Source: Paenibacillus sp. NAIST15-1
Lineage (GTDB): Bacteria; Bacillota; Bacilli; Paenibacillales; Paenibacillaceae
Reading direction: 5' to 3'
NCBI RefSeq assembly: GCF_001894745.1
Contig: NZ_BBYF01000005.1
Span: 248,001 to 312,000 of the forward strand
DNA: 64,000 nucleotides
How positions within the stretch are numbered: position 1 is the stretch's first letter; every line of letters starts with the position of its first letter. The position numbers and the translations under genes are program-made. Positions 46,116-54,016 of this stretch are shown piece after piece. The notes below the pieces were generated by a model. The model ran no database searches, had not been told where the DNA came from, and saw nothing but the letters and a program-made list of their open reading frames with translations.

Positions 46116-46162
46116 TTGACAACAGTTCGTCTTCTCCTATAAAATGAATGATAGTCAGTCAT
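46116..46162 (+). promoter_or_regulatory. Promoter and operator of the yvdT-like gene
   Basis: TTGACA (46116-46121), 16 bp, TATAAA (46138-46143), directly followed by ATGAATGATAGTCAGTCAT (46144-46162). The reverse complement of that 19-mer matches 46802-46820 at 17 of 19 positions, marking both as YvdT-type operators. Confidence 0.75.
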
Positions 46163-46164
46163 TT

Positions 46165-46773
46165 GTGATCGAGTTAGAGGAGGTCATACTCATCGAAGAC
46201 AAAAAGGAACGTATTGTTCGTGCGGCTATCGAAGTATTGTGCAGCAAAGGCATCGAAAAGACGAAGGTATCTGATATCGTGAAGGGAGCCGGGATTGCAC
46301 AGGGCACATTTTATCTTTACTTCCCTTCTAAGCTGGCTGTCATGCCTTCTATTGCAGAAGTCATGGTGCAGAAGATTATAGAAGCGCTCCAGAGCTCAGT
46401 AGATCAGGATGCCCCATTTCGGGATCAGATCAAGTCCTTTATTGCAACGGTATTCCAGCTTCATCATGATGGCCGAGAGCAACTAGCGCTGCTGTATGCA
46501 GGATTAGCCTCCAGTGAGCATCTTAAGGAATGGGAATCCATTTATAAGCCTTATTATGACTGGGTTACTGCACTGCTCGATAGGGCTCAAGCTAACGGAT
46601 CAATCCGGAAATCGCTCAACACTGCTAGAACGGCGCGAATTGTGATTGGGGCCATTGAATCCGCAGCTGAGCAAGTGTATCTGTTCGATCAAGCGGATGA
46701 ATCAGAAATACAAGCGCAAGCGGAGGAAGTATACGCCTTCGTCACTCACGCACTAGGGATTCAGGTCCTGTAG
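46165..46773 (+). CDS. yvdT: TetR-family regulator of an SMR drug-pump pair, YvdT-like
   Basis: About 195-203 residues depending on the start. HTH: IVRAAIEVLCSKGIEKTKVS, then DIVKGAGIAQGTFYLYFPSK, strikingly like B. subtilis YvdT, as is YKPYYDWVTALLDRA. It precedes two SMR genes, as yvdT does in B. subtilis. The start is unclear: the ATG at 46144 lies in the operator, upstream of the predicted start of transcription; GTG 46165 (used here) has no ribosome binding site; a strong AGAGGAGGT (46176-46184) is followed at proper distance only by ATA/CTC/ATC (46186-46194), so a non-canonical start is possible. Confidence 0.88.
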   Translation: MIELEEVILIEDKKERIVRAAIEVLCSKGIEKTKVSDIVKGAGIAQGTFYLYFPSKLAVMPSIAEVMVQKIIEALQSSVDQDAPFRDQIKSFIATVFQLHHDGREQLALLYAGLASSEHLKEWESIYKPYYDWVTALLDRAQANGSIRKSLNTARTARIVIGAIESAAEQVYLFDQADESEIQAQAEEVYAFVTHALGIQVL

Positions 46774-46838: not shown

Positions 46839-47186
46839 ATGAATCGTTCATGGATGTATGTGATGCTCACTTGCCTGTTCGAGCTGCTGTGGGTATACGG
46901 CTTTAATATGGCCTCATCGTGGTGGCATTGGGCCATTATTCTCGGAATTATTGCTGTTGATTTTCATTTCTTGGCTAAGGCTTGTGAGAAGCTACCTACC
47001 GGTACCGTATATGCGATCTTCGCAGGTGCAGGGACAGTCGGTACGGCACTGATGGATGTATTGTTCTTCGGCGGGAGTCTTAGCATAGGCAAAATTGGTT
47101 TTATGATCGTGCTTGTTGCAGGCGTTATCGGACTTAAATTGGCAGATCAAGCTGCCACGGATCATAAACAGAAAGGAGTTGCGTAA
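46839..47186 (+). CDS. yvdS: Small multidrug resistance (SMR) protein, YvdS-like subunit
   Basis: 115 residues, four membrane helices. TCLFELLWVYGFNMASSWWH carries the essential membrane Glu in TM1; VYAIFAGAGTVGTALMDVLF is the SMR TM3-4 signature. ATG 46839 follows GAGAGGTGTTATC. It ends two nt before the second SMR gene, so the two are translated together and probably form a hetero-oligomeric proton-coupled exporter of quaternary cations or guanidinium-like compounds. Regulated by the YvdT-like repressor. Confidence 0.92.
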   Translation: MNRSWMYVMLTCLFELLWVYGFNMASSWWHWAIILGIIAVDFHFLAKACEKLPTGTVYAIFAGAGTVGTALMDVLFFGGSLSIGKIGFMIVLVAGVIGLKLADQAATDHKQKGVA

Positions 47187-47188
47187 CG

Positions 47189-47503
47189 ATGGGATGGCTG
47201 TTTGTTTTCCTAGCGGCAATGTGTGAAATGGTCGGTGTAGTCGGGCTTAAGAAGTATTCCCAGCATAAAACGCTGCAAAATGGAGTGATCTTCTTAGGTG
47301 GATTCGGAGCTTCTTTTGCCCTACTCTATACTTCATTCCTATATCTTCAGGTTAGTGTCAGCTATGCAGTATGGGTCGGCATTGGTACTGCTGGAGCCGT
47401 GCTTCTCAATATGATTTTCTTCGGTGAAAGCAAAAGCCCAGCACGTATCGTGAGCCTCATCGCCATTATTATTGGGGTTACGGGTCTGAAAGCTTTGTCC
47501 TGA
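47189..47503 (+). CDS. yvdR: Small multidrug resistance (SMR) protein, YvdR-like subunit
   Basis: 104 residues, four helices. MGWLFVFLAAMCEMVGVVGL has the conserved TM1 Glu; SVSYAVWVGIGTAGAVLLNM is the SMR signature with the Y-A-V-W motif; ends ITGLK-like GVTGLKALS. ATG 47189, with an AGAAAGGAGTTGCGTAACG ribosome binding site inside the end of the partner gene. It forms the second half of a paired SMR pump. A terminator follows. Confidence 0.92.
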   Translation: MGWLFVFLAAMCEMVGVVGLKKYSQHKTLQNGVIFLGGFGASFALLYTSFLYLQVSVSYAVWVGIGTAGAVLLNMIFFGESKSPARIVSLIAIIIGVTGLKALS

Positions 47504-47631: not shown

Positions 47632-49086
47632 TTACATTAAATGCAATTTGCGATCCGAGAGATGGAAGTGTACATCCGCGGCATGCTCCACGAACTTCTT
47701 GTCATGAGACACGAAGATGATCGTTCCCTCATATGCGGCAATGAACCGCTCCAATGCTTCTATAGCATGAATATCTAAAAAGTTGGTCGGCTCGTCCAAC
47801 AATAGTATGTTATATTCCCCTAGGAATAGCTGGCACAGCTGGAGACGAATCGCTTCCCCACCGCTTAAGGATCGGACACTCTTCTGAATGTCAGTCCCGA
47901 CGAACTGCATAGCATGCAGCACACCTCGCAAAAAACCTTCCTCATAGTCGGAACGATTTTTGACGAATTGCAGCACGGACTCATTGCTTGTATAGTGATA
48001 ACTCATTTGACGGAACCAGCCTATTTTCGCTTTTGGGGAAATGGTTAAGCCTGCCCCCGCATTTGCTATTTGTGCTAACAGAGAGCTTTTTCCGCTTCCA
48101 TTTGCACCCGTAATCGCTATTTTCTTCCCCAGAGGGAGCTGGAAATTTACATCTTTAAGTAATACAGTGTCACCCAATTGGAGCGTGAGTCTGTCCGCCA
48201 TAATGGGAAACTTATTGTGCAATTCTACTGTTTTCGCTTGGCGAAACACGATCTGTCTCTCTTCCTGCACGGCCTCTACTTCTTGAAGCTTTTCCATACG
48301 ATGTTCAATAGCGCGAGCGGCACGATGGACTGCTTTTTGACTGGTGCCTTTCGATTTGGTTTCGAACATGCGGTTTGCTAATGCCTTCGACTCTTTCTTA
48401 GACATACTGCCTGCTTGCGCAATCTTTTCGGCTTTCTTCATTTTCTCTTGTGCAGCTTTTTCTAGGCGGTTTTTCTCCTTGATAAACTGCTCGTGTGCTT
48501 GCATCTGCTGTTCGCGCTCCAGGCGCTTCGCCTCGACGTAATCGCTGTAGTTCCCTGAATACACACGCACCTTGCCTTCATGCACTTCCCAAATCGTCGT
48601 GACGAGCTCATCCAGTACGGCACGATCATGACTGATCAGGACAAGCGCTCCGTAGTAATAGCGAAGCTCATCGAGCAGGAACGCAATGCCCGCTTGATCT
48701 AAATGGGTTGTTGGCTCATCGATGAGCAGTGCTTCATAATAATGAGTCAGCATGTGCGCTAGTTTCAGCCTTGTCTGCTCCCCGCCGCTTAAACCCTCAG
48801 TACGATTCGGAACCGCCAATCTGCCTAGTAACGCTGGATCTGCTTCAGCATCTGCAGGCGCCTCCATTTGCTCAAACAAGCCATACTCGACATGCCGCTT
48901 CACGTTCCCGCTCGTGGGTTGAACAGTACCTGCAATCAACCTCAGAAGCGTGCTCTTCCCTGCCCCGTTCTTGCCAACGATGCCAATGCGGTCAAACTGA
49001 TGTACAGCTAACCGGGCAATCTTGAGTATCTCTTTATCTAAATACGTCACTTCGACGTTTTCGAGTTCAAAACAAATATGTTCCAT
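47632..49086 (-). CDS. ABC-F antibiotic-resistance/ribosome-protection protein (Vga/VmlR-like)
   Basis: 484 residues. Two nucleotide-binding domains: Walker A GKNGAGKST (about 38-46) and GANGSGKSS; signatures GLSGGEQTRLKLAHML and SLSGGEAIRLQL; Walker B ALLIDEPTTHLD and ILLLDEPTNFLD. The interdomain linker (about 175-265, rich in K, E and Q) is long, as in proteins that displace lincosamides, streptogramin A and pleuromutilins from the ribosome. QFDRIGIVGKNGAGKSTLLR, TTIWEVHEGKVRVYSGNYSD and ATNFLD-type blocks match Vga(A) well from memory. ATG 49086 follows CGGAGGTAGCAAATAG. The upstream leader peptide and hairpins indicate antibiotic-inducible expression. Which drugs it acts on is not predictable. 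Confidence 0.9.
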   Translation of the reverse strand: MEHICFELENVEVTYLDKEILKIARLAVHQFDRIGIVGKNGAGKSTLLRLIAGTVQPTSGNVKRHVEYGLFEQMEAPADAEADPALLGRLAVPNRTEGLSGGEQTRLKLAHMLTHYYEALLIDEPTTHLDQAGIAFLLDELRYYYGALVLISHDRAVLDELVTTIWEVHEGKVRVYSGNYSDYVEAKRLEREQQMQAHEQFIKEKNRLEKAAQEKMKKAEKIAQAGSMSKKESKALANRMFETKSKGTSQKAVHRAARAIEHRMEKLQEVEAVQEERQIVFRQAKTVELHNKFPIMADRLTLQLGDTVLLKDVNFQLPLGKKIAITGANGSGKSSLLAQIANAGAGLTISPKAKIGWFRQMSYHYTSNESVLQFVKNRSDYEEGFLRGVLHAMQFVGTDIQKSVRSLSGGEAIRLQLCQLFLGEYNILLLDEPTNFLDIHAIEALERFIAAYEGTIIFVSHDKKFVEHAADVHFHLSDRKLHLM

Positions 49087-49293: not shown

Positions 49294-50223
49294 TTACCAG
49301 GTACCTTGCTCGTTCATGATTGCCTCGGCAAAGGCTACTTTTTGGACAAGGGCAGTATATTCCTCAGGTGTCGAACCGTCTTCTACACACCAACACATTC
49401 CCATTGCCGTTTCTACATATAAGCACTTCCTAATCATAGGATGCGGAATCGATAGCCTGCGTGCCAGCGTGATCATGATACCATCTATCTTCTCATAGCA
49501 TGCTGAAGTTATTTCGTTGTCGAACTCATTTAAAATAAATCGAGGAATATCGAATATAGGATCACCGATCACACCCTTCGGGTCGATGATCACGTATTCC
49601 CCATCGCTGCTGAGCAGCATATTATCATGATGAAGATCGCCGTGCAGCAGCAGATTTTGCGAATAGGATGAAGCAATGGACAAGCAAATATCTCTTGCAC
49701 GCTGCATATGTCTAGATAATTCAGGGCAATCGTTGCGCTGGTTCATGTAATCTGTTATCCGCTCAACCCAACCGATATAGGTTGGGAACTTTTCCGCCTC
49801 AACAGCCGCGATATGTAGATTCGAATATAAGGAACAGAATATGTCTAATCTCCGTTGTAAGGATTGCTCGTCGCGTAACGGAGTACCCGGCTGAAGAAGC
49901 TCAAGAAGAATAACGCCATTTTCAATATCCGCCTCGTACACCTTACAGAATCGCTGACCATTATATAGACGCATCGTTGAAACTTCCGTCCATATCGTTT
50001 CCGATGGTTCTCCTATTTTCAATACCGCATGCCCAACCTGATCCGAATAGCAAGTGAACACTATGTTTGCAGAAAAGGATGGGATTAGCTGCAATGAGGA
50101 CAACGACCACTTCTCGGCATAATCATCGAGATGGCGCAGCATCTGTTCATAAAATGTATTTCCAAATCGCTTCACGATAGTTTCGATTTGCTCCTGCGTA
50201 AATATGCTAGATTGGTACTCCAT
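49294..50223 (-). CDS. APH(6)/StrB-like aminoglycoside-hydroxyurea kinase family protein
   Basis: 309 residues. Start chosen at ATG 50223, seven nt after GGAGGG. Kinase-like fold: NIVFTCYSDQVGHAVLKIGE (N-lobe Lys), LLHGDLHHDNMLLSSDGEYV (catalytic loop H-G-D-L-H-x-x-N) and IIDPKGVIGDPIFDIPRFIL (metal-binding D-P-K-G). This IDPKGxxGDPxxD signature marks the APH_6_hur family, which phosphorylates streptomycin or hydroxyurea. Chromosomal members may have other substrates. On the minus strand just upstream of the ABC-F leader, with no terminator seen between, so some read-through is possible. Confidence 0.87.
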   Translation of the reverse strand: MEYQSSIFTQEQIETIVKRFGNTFYEQMLRHLDDYAEKWSLSSLQLIPSFSANIVFTCYSDQVGHAVLKIGEPSETIWTEVSTMRLYNGQRFCKVYEADIENGVILLELLQPGTPLRDEQSLQRRLDIFCSLYSNLHIAAVEAEKFPTYIGWVERITDYMNQRNDCPELSRHMQRARDICLSIASSYSQNLLLHGDLHHDNMLLSSDGEYVIIDPKGVIGDPIFDIPRFILNEFDNEITSACYEKIDGIMITLARRLSIPHPMIRKCLYVETAMGMCWCVEDGSTPEEYTALVQKVAFAEAIMNEQGTW

Positions 50224-50273
50224 ACCCATTCCCTCCATTGTCTAAATACCTCTTTATCCATTTTCAAGTAGAT

Positions 50274-50331: not shown

Positions 50332-51147
50332 TTAATTGTTGCTAACGGTTGCGGCTGGTTCTATCTTCGTCCGATACAACTTCTTCGCAAGCAGTGTTTG
50401 CAGAATAACGAACACGCCGCCTACACACCAATACATCGGTATGACTGCGGGAGTGGTCAGGGAAAACACGGTCATCATAATGGGAGACAAGTATCCCATA
50501 AATGCAAACTGCTTGCTCTGCATCGGATCCATGCCGATTTGTGTAGCCTTATATTGAAAGAAGTAGATGATCCCAACGAGCAGTGGGAGCACAACGTCTG
50601 GTCGTCCGAGCTGGAACCATAGGAACGAGTGTGCAGCTACTTCCGGTGTGAACTTAATGGCATAATACAATCCGGACAAGATAGGCAGCTGAATAAGCAG
50701 CGGCAAGCAGCCCATTGCCAGCGGATTCACCTGATGCTTCTGATACAATTGCATCATCTCTTGCTGCATCTTTGCTTTTGATTCCGCATCCTTCTTATCC
50801 TTATATGCATCTTGAAGAAGCTTCAACTCAGGCTGCAATACGTCCATCTTCTGTTTCATCTTCTGCTGATTGCGATACTGTCTCATCATGAGCGGCATCA
50901 GCGCTAATCGTACGAGCAGCGTGAGCAAAATCAATGCCAGGCCATAGCTTCCACCGAAAAATGCCGCAAAATGTTGAATCAGATACACAAACGGATACAC
51001 AATGTAATGATTAAAAAAGCCTGGCGTATTAGCATCAACGGTCGCATTAGGCCCGCTTACCCCGCATCCGCTTAATAGCACTAGGAGCACCAGTGCCCCG
51101 ATTAGAATGAACTTTCGCTTGTAGGTGAATACATTGAACTGCTCCAT
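50332..51147 (-). CDS. yidC: YidC/OxaI-family membrane protein insertase (YidC2/YqjG-like)
   Basis: 271 residues. ATG 51147 follows AAGGAGGACGATT; the frame is open to 51384 but that part belongs to the overlapping upstream ORF region. Lipoprotein signal with lipobox LLSGC (cysteine near residue 28), then five membrane segments: FFGGSYGLALILLTLLVRLA with the essential hydrophilic-groove Arg, a cytoplasmic coiled-coil hairpin (QQKMKQKMDVLQPELKLLQD), CLPLLIQLPILSGLYYAIKF, and PVIPMYW-like AVIPMYWCVGGVFVILQTLL. It inserts membrane proteins alone or with SecYEG. Its ribosome binding site is buried in a hairpin inside an upstream ORF, pointing to MifM-like feedback control. Confidence 0.93.
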   Translation of the reverse strand: MEQFNVFTYKRKFILIGALVLLVLLSGCGVSGPNATVDANTPGFFNHYIVYPFVYLIQHFAAFFGGSYGLALILLTLLVRLALMPLMMRQYRNQQKMKQKMDVLQPELKLLQDAYKDKKDAESKAKMQQEMMQLYQKHQVNPLAMGCLPLLIQLPILSGLYYAIKFTPEVAAHSFLWFQLGRPDVVLPLLVGIIYFFQYKATQIGMDPMQSKQFAFMGYLSPIMMTVFSLTTPAVIPMYWCVGGVFVILQTLLAKKLYRTKIEPAATVSNN

Positions 51148-51452
51148 AATCGTCCTCCTTGATTGGGTAACGTTCTGATTCCAATCAAGGAACGGCAGTC
51201 TCCTGAATCTCCATCCGGCGCTTCTTTTCGCTTCACGCTTCTGGTTAGCCAGTGATGTATCTCTGTCCGACCGACGATCCGTTCCTGATGAGGAACAATC
51301 GCGACTCGGCCTCTGTATGCAGGGACTAAGAAGCGATCGACTGCGACATACAGATGTGCAACGTAAGCATACGTCAGTGAGCATATTAGACCGATCGAGA
51401 TAAAATACGGAATCAAATCAGAAGACATCAGATCCTGGAGTTCCAACAGCAA
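51102..51452 (-). CDS. Putative MifM-like regulatory nascent chain upstream of yidC2
   Basis: 116 residues from TTG 51452, eight nt after GGGAGG; a GTG at 51461 touches that site. One membrane segment (about residues 13-38: LIPYFISIGLICSLTYAYVA), then a basic tail TRSVKRKEAPDGDSGD. The ORF overlaps yidC2 by 46 nt and reads straight through the hairpin that hides the yidC2 ribosome binding site. A ribosome paused around 51200-51210, where the acidic cluster E-A-P-D-G-D-S-G-D is being added, would open that hairpin. B. subtilis MifM works this way (membrane-anchored arrest peptide, acidic arrest residues), but the sequence here is not recognisably MifM. Real translation is likely; the arrest function is inferred. 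Confidence 0.6.
   Translation of the reverse strand: MLLELQDLMSSDLIPYFISIGLICSLTYAYVAHLYVAVDRFLVPAYRGRVAIVPHQERIVGRTEIHHWLTRSVKRKEAPDGDSGDCRSLIGIRTLPNQGGRLWSSSMYSPTSESSF
51154..51190 (-). promoter_or_regulatory. Hairpin sequestering the yidC2 ribosome binding site
   Basis: Perfect 10-bp stem: CCTTGATTGG (51181-51190) with CCAATCAAGG (51157-51166), 14-nt loop. The second strand includes AAGG of the AAGGAGG ribosome binding site (51154-51160). No T-tract, so it is not a terminator. Confidence 0.8.
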
Positions 51453-51736
51453 TGCATTCACCTCCCTTTTTTGCAGTTAACAATAGTATCACATATCTCA
51501 AATGGTGAGACAAGTTTCATTTATAGGAAAAATCAAACAGTTGGATTCAAACCCGAAAACGAGTATGAATCTCAAAAACAGGCGGAATCATCTTCTTTTT
51601 ATGATCGAATTATCACGGTACATTTGCTTACCACCTGTTGAATTATAAAAAAAGCCCTGCTTAGAGCAGAGCTTGTGTACATGATTGTGATTTGATGATC
51701 AGGTCATCAATCGCCATGTAACGCCGCCAAGATTTC

Positions 51737-52507
51737 TTAGAATGGAATACGTTCCGAATGAATCTTGTAACCATGCTCTTCAGCCCATGAGACGAGTCCA
51801 TTCCAGAACTGTTCGCACGCATCAATAATTCGATCCGGTTCAGACAACTGACCAGACATGACCATATTGGCGACCGCGTCATAGCCATCTGGGCGCTCTG
51901 GCAGCTCTAATGATTCTGGAAGTACCCTAGCTCCTGTCGAATACAGCTTCCGATTGTGAAGACCGATTAACATGGCGCCGTACTTGGCAAATTGCATAGC
52001 TAAGTAAGGAAGATAGCTTTGTGTGCCGGTTCGATTTGCATTCCGGAGCTTTCCAATGAATTCATACATTTCTCCCACGAGCACTTCATGAATTGCATTC
52101 GAGAAATCCACACTTGAGGGTAATTGTGCCGCTTCCTTCAGCTTAGAAAAAAATCCATCCGGATCATAGAGGCTTAGTGGTGAGAAGAACGGCCCGTGTG
52201 TTAATGGCCAGTCCCCTTCCACTGTGGCGGCATCGTTCAGAACCACACTTGCACTTCGTACATTCACTTCGGCCTTCCAAGGCCCGGATGACCATTCGTA
52301 ACTGAAGTCTACCTCTTCATCTGCGTTCTTCAGCACACAGAACATCTCAATGTCCGAATAAGGACCGTCCGTGCCTCGGGATACGGAGCCGTACACTCCG
52401 ATTGCAATAATTTGCTCACCATAAACCTTCTGCAAGCGGTCGGCAAGTTCACAACAGGTTGCCAGTCTTTCTTGTCTTGAAATTTCAACTGGTCCATTCA
52501 TGGTCAT
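51737..52507 (-). CDS. Aminoglycoside 4'-O-nucleotidyltransferase-like enzyme (ANT(4')/AadD family)
   Basis: 256 residues, about the size of staphylococcal ANT(4')-Ia (253 as I recall). Nucleotidyltransferase motif G-S-x-x-x-G-T-D-G-P-Y-S-D-I-E: G40-S41, then metal ligands D52 and E54. GDWPLTHGPFFSPLSLYDPD, GEMYEFIGKLRN (general-base Glu), KYGAMLIGLHNRKLYSTGAR, VMSGQL and FWNGLVSWAEEHGY all have counterparts in AadD, so the call is firm at family level. It would adenylylate kanamycin/tobramycin-type drugs at O4'. ATG 52507 follows GGGAGAG. Chromosomal context without mobile elements suggests an intrinsic gene. Confidence 0.9.
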   Translation of the reverse strand: MTMNGPVEISRQERLATCCELADRLQKVYGEQIIAIGVYGSVSRGTDGPYSDIEMFCVLKNADEEVDFSYEWSSGPWKAEVNVRSASVVLNDAATVEGDWPLTHGPFFSPLSLYDPDGFFSKLKEAAQLPSSVDFSNAIHEVLVGEMYEFIGKLRNANRTGTQSYLPYLAMQFAKYGAMLIGLHNRKLYSTGARVLPESLELPERPDGYDAVANMVMSGQLSEPDRIIDACEQFWNGLVSWAEEHGYKIHSERIPF

Positions 52508-52714: not shown

Positions 52715-53689
52715 CTATACCTGATAAAATATTCGCTCTCCTGCTAGGAATGGCAAACAATGATCAACACAAAACTTCGGCATTTTCTCCCGCATCCAAT
52801 TATGTACGGACTCGTTCCCCATTTGAAACGCGTAATATCCGATAATCGAAATCAGCATCATGCCTTCGATGAGAACAAGCTCGTCCGCATCTATGTTCGC
52901 AGTTCCGTAATATCCCTCTAGGAATATATCTCTGTGTGCTGCGGGAGCCATCATCGCCCCCATGGAGATGTCTGTCCAATCGTATCCCGGGCCAAAGAAT
53001 CCGAAGTCAATAAAGCTTAATTGACCATCAGGAGAGATAATCATATTACCAAAACCTAAATCACCGTGAATAAGTCCCCATCTATCCTCGGTTCCGAATT
53101 GCTCAAGTTTATCGTTGATAAGATGAATGCATTTCTCGATGATTGCGACATCTGAAGGCACAAATAAACCGAGTTCCAACCCTTTATGTATTGTTGAAAT
53201 CAAGCCAACATTATATGCAATCCCTTGCTCTGGTCGATTCTTTACCCGATCGCGCGGATACTGACGGTAAAATTCATGGAGTTTAGCAACTTGAGATCCG
53301 AGCAGCTTGACCAATTCTGGCTTCTGAACGTCTTCTTTCTGAAGATCCCTACCTTCCAGCCATGTTAGAACCGAACAGTTCAATCGCTGCCCTTCATGTT
53401 CGATGACGGTAATCAATTCCCCATCTCGATTGCGCAGCGGCGATTGCACCAGCAGGCTGCTCTCCTTCGCCAAGGCTTCCAGCATGAGCAGTTCACCTAG
53501 CAAACCTTCATAAGTATGTTGCAAGCCTGTCATACTTTCTTTAAACGGCTGATGAACACGTAGGACATAAGTTCTGCCGTCAGCGTCGCTCACTTTATAT
53601 GTCCGATTCTCATTATGCCTCAGGAAAGTGATTTCTGGCTTATGGAAGCGAAAACAGTGTAGAATGTGATGTAATTGTTCATCTGTCAT
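52715..53689 (-). CDS. APH/choline-kinase-fold phosphotransferase
   Basis: 324 residues. ATG 53689 follows GAGAGGAAATTGAAG. Kinase-like fold: RTYVLRVHQP (N-lobe), WGLIHGDLGFGNMIISPDGQ (catalytic H-G-D-x-x-x-x-N) and LSFIDFGFFGPGYDWTDISM (metal-binding D-F-G). It resembles the homoserine-kinase-II/SrkA/YcbJ-like group, which includes stress kinases and macrolide or aminoglycoside kinases; the substrate cannot be named. A stand-alone gene within the resistance-type cluster. Confidence 0.85.
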   Translation of the reverse strand: MTDEQLHHILHCFRFHKPEITFLRHNENRTYKVSDADGRTYVLRVHQPFKESMTGLQHTYEGLLGELLMLEALAKESSLLVQSPLRNRDGELITVIEHEGQRLNCSVLTWLEGRDLQKEDVQKPELVKLLGSQVAKLHEFYRQYPRDRVKNRPEQGIAYNVGLISTIHKGLELGLFVPSDVAIIEKCIHLINDKLEQFGTEDRWGLIHGDLGFGNMIISPDGQLSFIDFGFFGPGYDWTDISMGAMMAPAAHRDIFLEGYYGTANIDADELVLIEGMMLISIIGYYAFQMGNESVHNWMREKMPKFCVDHCLPFLAGERIFYQV

Positions 53690-54016
53690 CTTCAATTTCC
53701 TCTCATCGATGAATAAGTAGACATGTCCAAAATACTATATAAGCAGTCTACTTCCTAATGTTGGGATTGTCTACAACACTATGAAAATCCAAAGATGTTT
53801 ATAGCACGGTTATCATTATTATTGCTCGCTTAAACTAGCTAAATTGCTCCCCTTCTCACCTTTTCATAAAGGAGAATCGGGCAAGCGCCCTCAGCTCCAT
53901 GTTACGTGTCACATGCTGAAGACGTTTGCCCATATCGACGTGTATGCATGAGGCGGGCTAAGCGATTCACAGATTATCCAGAAACAGCATGCTGCATTGC
54001 TCCATACGAGCATACT
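53690..54016. other. Intergenic region without a supported gene
   Basis: Between the kinase and sigma factor genes I see only a 14-codon minus-strand frame (start about 53901) without a ribosome binding site. No terminator or repeat can be supported. Confidence 0.5.

Follow-up and report, generated by a model that had tools for sequence, protein, structure and literature searches.

Three yidC-linked arrest peptides, MifM, ApcA and CliM, are counted in the portion of PMC13183943 available to us. MifM (YqzJ) of Bacillus subtilis, like the locus described here, precedes a second yidC in the same orientation and carries one N-terminal helix; it stalls with D89, A90, G91 and S92 in the P site (PMC4423224, available part), and the residues it needs are R69, I70, W73, I74, M80, N81 and a negative run, D86-D89. 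CliM of Clostridia (uC_KYxIW) is alike in standing before yidC2 and in combining a helix with an arrest motif and a hairpin on the binding site (PMC13183943), its motif being K-Y-x-I-W at 7-11 residues from the stall site (PMC10987492, available part), and we liken it to the present locus by description only. ApcA of actinobacteria also precedes a second yidC and has an N-terminal helix (PMC7897499, available part), but its arrest motif is R-A-P-G (PMC10987492). The latter article, whose screen was built on annotated upstream genes, reports a MifM cluster of 631 upstream open reading frames (uORFs), of which Firmicutes supply 619, and retains 572 sequences in its final set; Paenibacillus is not named in its main text. 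The MifM family is already known, as is, probably, its breadth. Our literature search, with most subscription papers outside it, found no account of the motif, the overlap or the covarying hairpin reported below for Paenibacillaceae, and no paper joining Paenibacillus with MifM or with a YidC arrest peptide.

The window analysed here, the whole 64,000-nucleotide stretch of DNA from Paenibacillus sp. NAIST15-1, contains on its minus strand a uORF (51102-51452) that lies before yidC2 (50332-51147) and overlaps it, and that is, judged by its conservation, a real, intact and conserved regulatory leader. The unit comprises the following features.

50332..51147, minus strand: yidC2, encoding a second YidC/Oxa1 insertase (PF02096, E 1.3e-43), with a lipobox-like LLSGC recognised by eye
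51102..51452, minus strand: uORF of 116 aa with a TTG start, proposed to encode a MifM-family monitoring peptide (sequence and relatives)
51342..51416, minus strand: single transmembrane helix, approximately residues 13-37 (hydrophobic stretch by eye; AlphaFold2 helix 3-42)
51461..51466, minus strand: GGGAGG, ribosome-binding site of the uORF (sequence)
51485..51513, minus strand: promoter-like TTGTCT-17-GATACT (8/12), seen by eye and below the threshold of the promoter scan
51652..51674, minus strand: hairpin resembling an intrinsic terminator, separating the uORF from the gene upstream (scan)

A reading made from the sequence alone had called this ORF at 51102-51461. As the longest form of the frame that call stands, but GTG 51461 is a poor start because its first G is the last base of the GGGAGG at 51461-51466; TTG 51452 instead follows the GGGAGG by 8 nt, a normal spacing, and agrees with relatives. 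Three other elements of that reading were borne out: the GGGAGG as ribosome-binding site of the uORF, the 46-nt overlap with yidC2 (yidC2 ATG at 51147, uORF stop at 51102-51104) and the single membrane segment, since the product contains one hydrophobic helix, modelled by AlphaFold2 at residues 3-42 with a block mean pLDDT of up to 98 and with nothing regular beyond it. Up to E 1 the window uORF had no match among Pfam and NCBIfam models, and the 40 members of alignment A1, searched against the same collections, gave single-member matches only, at E up to 0.1.

Directly upstream of the uORF, 51737-52507 (minus strand) encodes an ANT(4')-I family aminoglycoside nucleotidyltransferase (436 bits against an NCBIfam cut-off of 350), and the terminator-like hairpin listed above separates this gene from the uORF. 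Further along, 47632-49086 (minus strand) encodes an ABC-F ribosomal protection-type protein (769 bits against an Msr family cut-off of 680). Two phosphotransferase-like proteins (49294-50238 and 52715-53695, both minus strand) flank the uORF-yidC2 unit, their matches to APH(6) and kinase models lying far below cut-offs. An SMR-type efflux protein pair on the plus strand (46839-47503) is likewise below cut-off, with the SugE model best, and has a TetR-like ORF (46144-46773, family assigned by eye) ahead of it.

The uORF is tied to yidC2 across the Paenibacillaceae. The source genome has two YidC genes, and the other one, located between rnpA and jag (neighbours named by eye from translation), has no such uORF; within the genus, YidC2 occurs in 2 of 19 genomes, the same two that have the uORF. 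Among 394 Paenibacillaceae genomes, 221 have at least two YidC matches, 221 have the uORF (counted at E <= 1e-3) and 219 have both, the YidC and uORF tables being matched by hand, genus by genus; the uORF appears in 2 of the 173 genomes with fewer than two YidC matches. The motif described below is carried by 30/30 YidC2 loci versus 0/19 YidC1-type loci and by 60/60 further YidC2 loci; a strict pattern had overlooked 11 of these 60, which were added by eye, and one of the 60 (L110) has a stop in the spacer. In 34/34 fetched relatives from named genomes tblastn finds yidC just downstream on the same strand. The sequence-only reading had looked to Paenibacillaceae relatives for a conserved upstream ORF and stem, and 219 of the 221 genomes, together with the conserved motif and the covarying stem, agree with it; no intact YidC2 lacking the ORF was found in the 394 genomes at the thresholds used.

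The exceptions are individual cases. One genome (G027) has two YidC1-type loci, with rnpA-yidC-jag-mnmE present twice; another (G237, locus L188) has a truncated yidC2, and the uORF was not found there; the only YidC found in a third (G394), which is 63% complete, is YidC2; and in a fourth (G234, L205) the uORF is intact but no yidC follows. In G176 (L110), met in passing, an in-frame TGA falls in the uORF spacer and the motif, hairpin and yidC2 are kept: this is one instance of the stem outlasting the ORF, which the sequence-only reading had counted as evidence against itself, and such an interrupted uORF would speak against the model if common. In two further genomes, G253 (L186/L190) and G262 (L182/L189), yidC2 occupies two frames and is still preceded by the uORF, and G262, G253, G237, G234 and G176 resemble a series of operon decay. 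No yidC was seen beside the match in the stretch examined at L011, L173, L174 and L175, and these loci were left out.

For measurements on the unit itself, 177 of 209 loci were taken, 32 YidC1-type or chance loci having been set aside by hand. Under the rules of our script 25 of the 177 yielded no pair, several of them true uORFs including Bacillus ones, and dropping 25 repeats left 127 uORF-yidC2 pairs; a Pro was required of each, so the invariance of that residue in this set holds by construction. The script gave a TTG start to 99 of the 125 uORFs with an assignable start (127 examined, window included, 2 unassigned), some of these automatic starts being doubtful or probably misplaced (e.g. 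L090, L102, L107 and ten at distance 65).

Conservation of the peptide outside its membrane helix centres on W-L-x-R-x-V-K-R-K-E-[AS]-P-D-x-[DE]-x-x-D-C, which in the window reads W-L-x-R-x-V-K-R-K-E-A-P-D-G-D-S-G-D-C.

51195..51251, minus strand: conserved arrest-type motif, W68-C86 (WLTRSVKRKEAPDGDSGDC; per-column counts in the 40-member alignment A1)
51216-51218, minus strand: codon of Pro79 within the motif (alignment A1)

In A1 Pro79 is invariant and S19, R75, D80, D82 and C86 are each present in at least 90% of members, with W68 a Trp in only 17 of the 40. Members are most alike in the motif (mean pairwise identity 0.52), then in the N-terminal part (0.42), the tail (0.22) and the spacer (0.11), and the start lies a mean of 72.6 residues from the motif Pro (sd 3.1; 125 of 127 pairs, automatic starts); as far as these alignments go, the spacer is free in sequence and narrow in length. 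Between the window and P. alvei DSM 29, the 20 motif codons differ by 3 synonymous and 0 amino-acid changes (small numbers) and the 30 tail codons by 0 synonymous and 6 amino-acid changes; the length of the tail differs by tens of residues between relatives. Other Paenibacillaceae genera carry an intermediate motif, I-Q-R-W-I-V-R-T-A-R-R-R-E-A-P-D-E-E-D. The Cys that directly follows the acidic cluster (C86, 51195-51197) is found in 36/40 members of A1 and in 97/127 pairs, with both codons used; in the first predicted stall this Cys would occupy the A site. Its equivalent is absent in the g13 members read and in most of the g12 members read.

The motifs of the other two arrest peptides were looked for by eye in A1. 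The K-Y-x-I-W of CliM was not seen in its 40 members, which at the place of the R-A-P-P-like motif of ApcA and RQH (R/Q/H-A/G-P-P, R-A-P-G or R-A-G-P) mostly read E-[AS]-P-D.

Between the motif and yidC2 lies a hairpin over the yidC2 ribosome-binding site.

51154..51160, minus strand: AAGGAGG, ribosome-binding site of yidC2, partly buried in the hairpin (sequence)
51181..51191, minus strand: 5' arm of the yidC2 hairpin (folding, covariation, shuffles)
51156..51166, minus strand: 3' arm of the yidC2 hairpin (folding, covariation, shuffles)

The perfect 10-bp stem that had been proposed on inspection (51157-51166/51181-51190) is indeed there, made 11 bp by A51156-U51191, and it covers the AAGG of AAGGAGG as had been said. 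In dinucleotide shuffles of the 60 nt upstream, a stem of at least 10 bp over the site arose in 1/2000 and one of 11 bp in 0/2000. The strong evidence for the predicted hairpin is comparative. In alignment A3 (60 gap-free aligned sequences, window included, picked for equal spacing from 119 distinct pairs), 91.8% of the cells of the ten-pair stem pair and 7 of the 10 pairs have changed on both sides; cells changed on both sides number 60 versus 16.1 in shuffles, with 0/500 shuffles as high, and sliding the stem partner by 1-3 columns leaves at most 68.7% paired. An energy-based consensus recovers 8/10 of the stem pairs. Controls that fold one sequence at a time are weak: taken by itself, the 141-nt region has no unusual folding energy (z -1.38, 19/200 shuffles as low), shuffled leaders also leave the binding site partly closed (unpaired fraction 0.33 versus 0.14 in native leaders), and only 50/127 loci have at most 1 of 20 mononucleotide shuffles as closed. 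With part of the leader masked in the folding, the site is more than 0.7 unpaired in 43/127 loci and more than 0.5 unpaired in 80/127.

Across the 127 pairs, the distance from the Pro codon to the yidC2 start is 58-79 nt (median 71, sd 3.0), and the uORF stop falls anywhere from -36 to +163 nt relative to that start (sd 42.6), the uORF extending beyond the start in 106 of them. A leader that works by termination and reinitiation should fix its stop codon, and one that works by a stalled ribosome should fix its motif; the latter pattern is the one seen. Ordinary translational coupling, in which ribosomes on the uORF would unfold the hairpin and end translation close to where yidC2 begins, with no arrest, draws strength from the overlap itself, for translation of the uORF must melt the hairpin. 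It would nevertheless lead one to expect a fixed stop and a free motif, the opposite of what the two standard deviations describe; moreover the motif looks selected as protein, with only synonymous changes among its few differences from P. alvei, and third codon positions of the motif vary in the alignment. We therefore consider coupling of this kind improbable. As patterns of sequence, the fixed motif distance, the wandering stop and the covarying stem are marks of an arrest peptide rather than of translational coupling. A further reading takes the product to be a small membrane protein with its own function, for example a partner of YidC2, and the hairpin to be a separate element; a partner would fit the strict co-occurrence with yidC2 equally well, yet tail and spacer are little conserved (pairwise identity 0.22 and 0.11), tail length differs by tens of residues, and a protein acting on its own offers no reason for a motif-to-start distance fixed in nucleotides, so that we give this reading next to no credence.

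Where an arrested ribosome would stand on the leader was estimated by a front-edge scan, in which the leaders of 80 pairs with a spacing of 70-71 were cut from the 5' end to imitate the edge of the ribosome. On average, 0.19 of the binding site is unpaired with the edge at Pro+24, 0.31 at +27 and 0.59 at +30, and from +30 to +42 the mean stays near 0.6, with 61-65% of the 80 pairs above 0.5. The window by itself gives 0.06 at +27, 0.57 at +30, then 0.75, 0.87, 0.91 and 0.93 from +33 to +42, and 0.49 at +45. The front edge of a ribosome lies 15 nt from its P site. When the stall sites of MifM are aligned by the Pro they correspond to D85, C86, R87 and S88 of the window peptide, which with this distance puts the edge at +33 to +42.

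51189..51200, minus strand: predicted P-site codons of the stalled ribosome, D85-S88 (front-edge scan and alignment to MifM D89-S92)

The pause position suggested earlier, 51200-51210, came close, but the computed opening is at Pro+30 to +33 and the predicted codons D85-S88 are at 51189-51200 instead. A Bacillus-type mifM locus (L124) has the same 71-nt spacing from Pro to start and the same hairpin register over the yidC2 site, and there the unpaired fraction rises from 0.30 at +30 to 0.79 at +33.

On inspection the ORF, its acidic cluster apart, had seemed not recognisably MifM, and BLASTP between the window ORF and the Bacillus MifM of L124 found no similarity between these two single sequences. 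At the level of profiles that judgement fails: the Paenibacillaceae uORFs match the MifM family by way of ORFs that precede yidC in other Bacillales. Paenibacillaceae and Bacillales uORF profiles match at P 1.9e-10 (probability 96.9%), the Bacillales profile matches a three-member Bacillus MifM profile at P 3.4e-5, and the direct match of Paenibacillaceae to Bacillus MifM has P 2.9e-4; for each of these, 0/60 column-shuffled controls reached the score of the match, and that of the reversed version was far below it. A search of 177,635 PDB sequences with the 40-member profile placed B. subtilis MifM second (E 1.1, colinear from helix to motif), and the Bacillales profile again placed it second (E 0.4), behind an unrelated chain at E 0.019; these matches to MifM are alone not significant, and with alignment A4, a different selection of members, MifM was not listed. 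We conclude from the profile comparisons that the uORF encodes a divergent MifM-family member in which the M80-N81 residues are replaced and the acidic run is broken.

A search of 199 Bacillales genomes with the three-member MifM profile, which returned four genomes of one genus and three weak, chance-like matches, first suggested that MifM is confined to one genus. We dropped this reading because Bacillales yidC loci themselves show MifM-like uORFs in 27 of 30 (those with the best scores among the YidC loci of 179 genomes, read by eye, some motifs loose). The three loci with no recognisable MifM-like uORF, L229, L233 and L237, belong to one Bacillales family (f39).

Set beside MifM, the uORF family shows a basic stretch, an Arg where MifM has R79, [SA]-P and, at the corresponding position, an acidic cluster; several relatives (e.g. 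L036, L040) also share the R-I-x-x-W-[IL] of MifM. Among the residues that B. subtilis MifM needs, I65, W68 and L69 of the window fit, R69 corresponds to E64 in the window but to R in several relatives, and M80-N81 corresponds to K76-E77. The acidic cluster had been described as being as in MifM, which is right as to its place; it is broken (D80-G-D82-S-G-D85), not consecutive as in MifM. The end of the helix (about residue 37) lies about 48 residues from D85, and the median published for MifM is 54 (PMC10987492, available part). Unlike MifM, most relatives have a Cys after the acidic residues and a TTG start, and the uORF continues out of frame across the start of yidC2; in L123-L125, mifM ends ahead of that start. 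The Bacillales uORFs (L214-L239) have the majority motif W-[IL]-x-K-x-I-[KR]-R-K-x4-D-[DE] near residue 82, at 60-79 nt before the yidC start in the 20 loci measured, much as in Paenibacillaceae, and their closest motif is W-I-L-K-T-V-K-R-K-E-R-P-N-D-D-Q-D-D; in 19 aligned members Asp84 occurs 18 times, Lys79 14, Trp71 12, Pro82 9 and Glu80 8. They differ in having His, not Cys, after the acidic cluster (11/19) and, by eye, mostly no overlap with yidC.

The MifM-like sensor proposed by the sequence-only reading is thus supported by co-occurrence, fixed motif distance, free stop, covariation and profile homology, and we think it very probable that the uORF product is a diverged monitoring substrate of the MifM family whose stall opens the hairpin and switches on yidC2, a spare insertase. 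The N-terminal helix of the peptide would be a client of YidC. If its insertion failed, the motif would stall the ribosome with about D85-S88 in the P site, and the stalled ribosome would cover the 5' arm, freeing the yidC2 ribosome-binding site so that the spare insertase is made. If insertion succeeded, pull on the chain would free the stall, the ribosome would move on across the yidC2 start in another frame, and yidC2 would stay low. What the sequence comparisons above show is a conserved motif at a nearly constant distance from the start, a hairpin that covaries, a link with yidC2 and kinship with the MifM family; from these we infer that the ribosome stalls, that YidC relieves the stall and that yidC2 responds. 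An arrest leader that responds to a signal different from membrane insertion, for instance to an antibiotic, an amino acid or the state of the ribosome, would present an arrest motif and hairpin that look alike, and genes for an Msr-type ABC-F protein and ANT(4')-I are near in the window; such a leader does not account for a membrane helix and a narrow start-to-motif length kept over an unconserved spacer, the next gene is yidC in all 34 named relatives fetched, and MifM and CliM have the same layout (available part of PMC13183943). We regard a signal of that sort as unlikely.

The mechanism proposed for the MifM-family leader is familiar; the motif common to the family differs from that of B. 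subtilis. Most other MifM-like ORFs examined have a basic R-K-x at the place of M-N, before the Asp cluster, and the Paenibacillaceae form of this basic element is [KR]-R-K-E-[AS]-P-D-x-D. It is a tentative idea, which we would not favour on present data, that the M-N-x4-DEED of B. subtilis is the exception and basic R-K-x the common form, that the Paenibacillaceae add a Cys at the predicted A site, and that run-through across the overlap enforces the OFF state; if true, there would be a second arrest chemistry within one family and a new OFF mechanism. Such ORFs may be easily missed, most of them starting with TTG and overlapping yidC2. The family mechanism is known from one species. The present set offers about 220 natural variants of an arrest peptide, with the stall predicted to the codon; their common motif suggests that the residues found to matter for arrest in B. 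subtilis do not hold generally.
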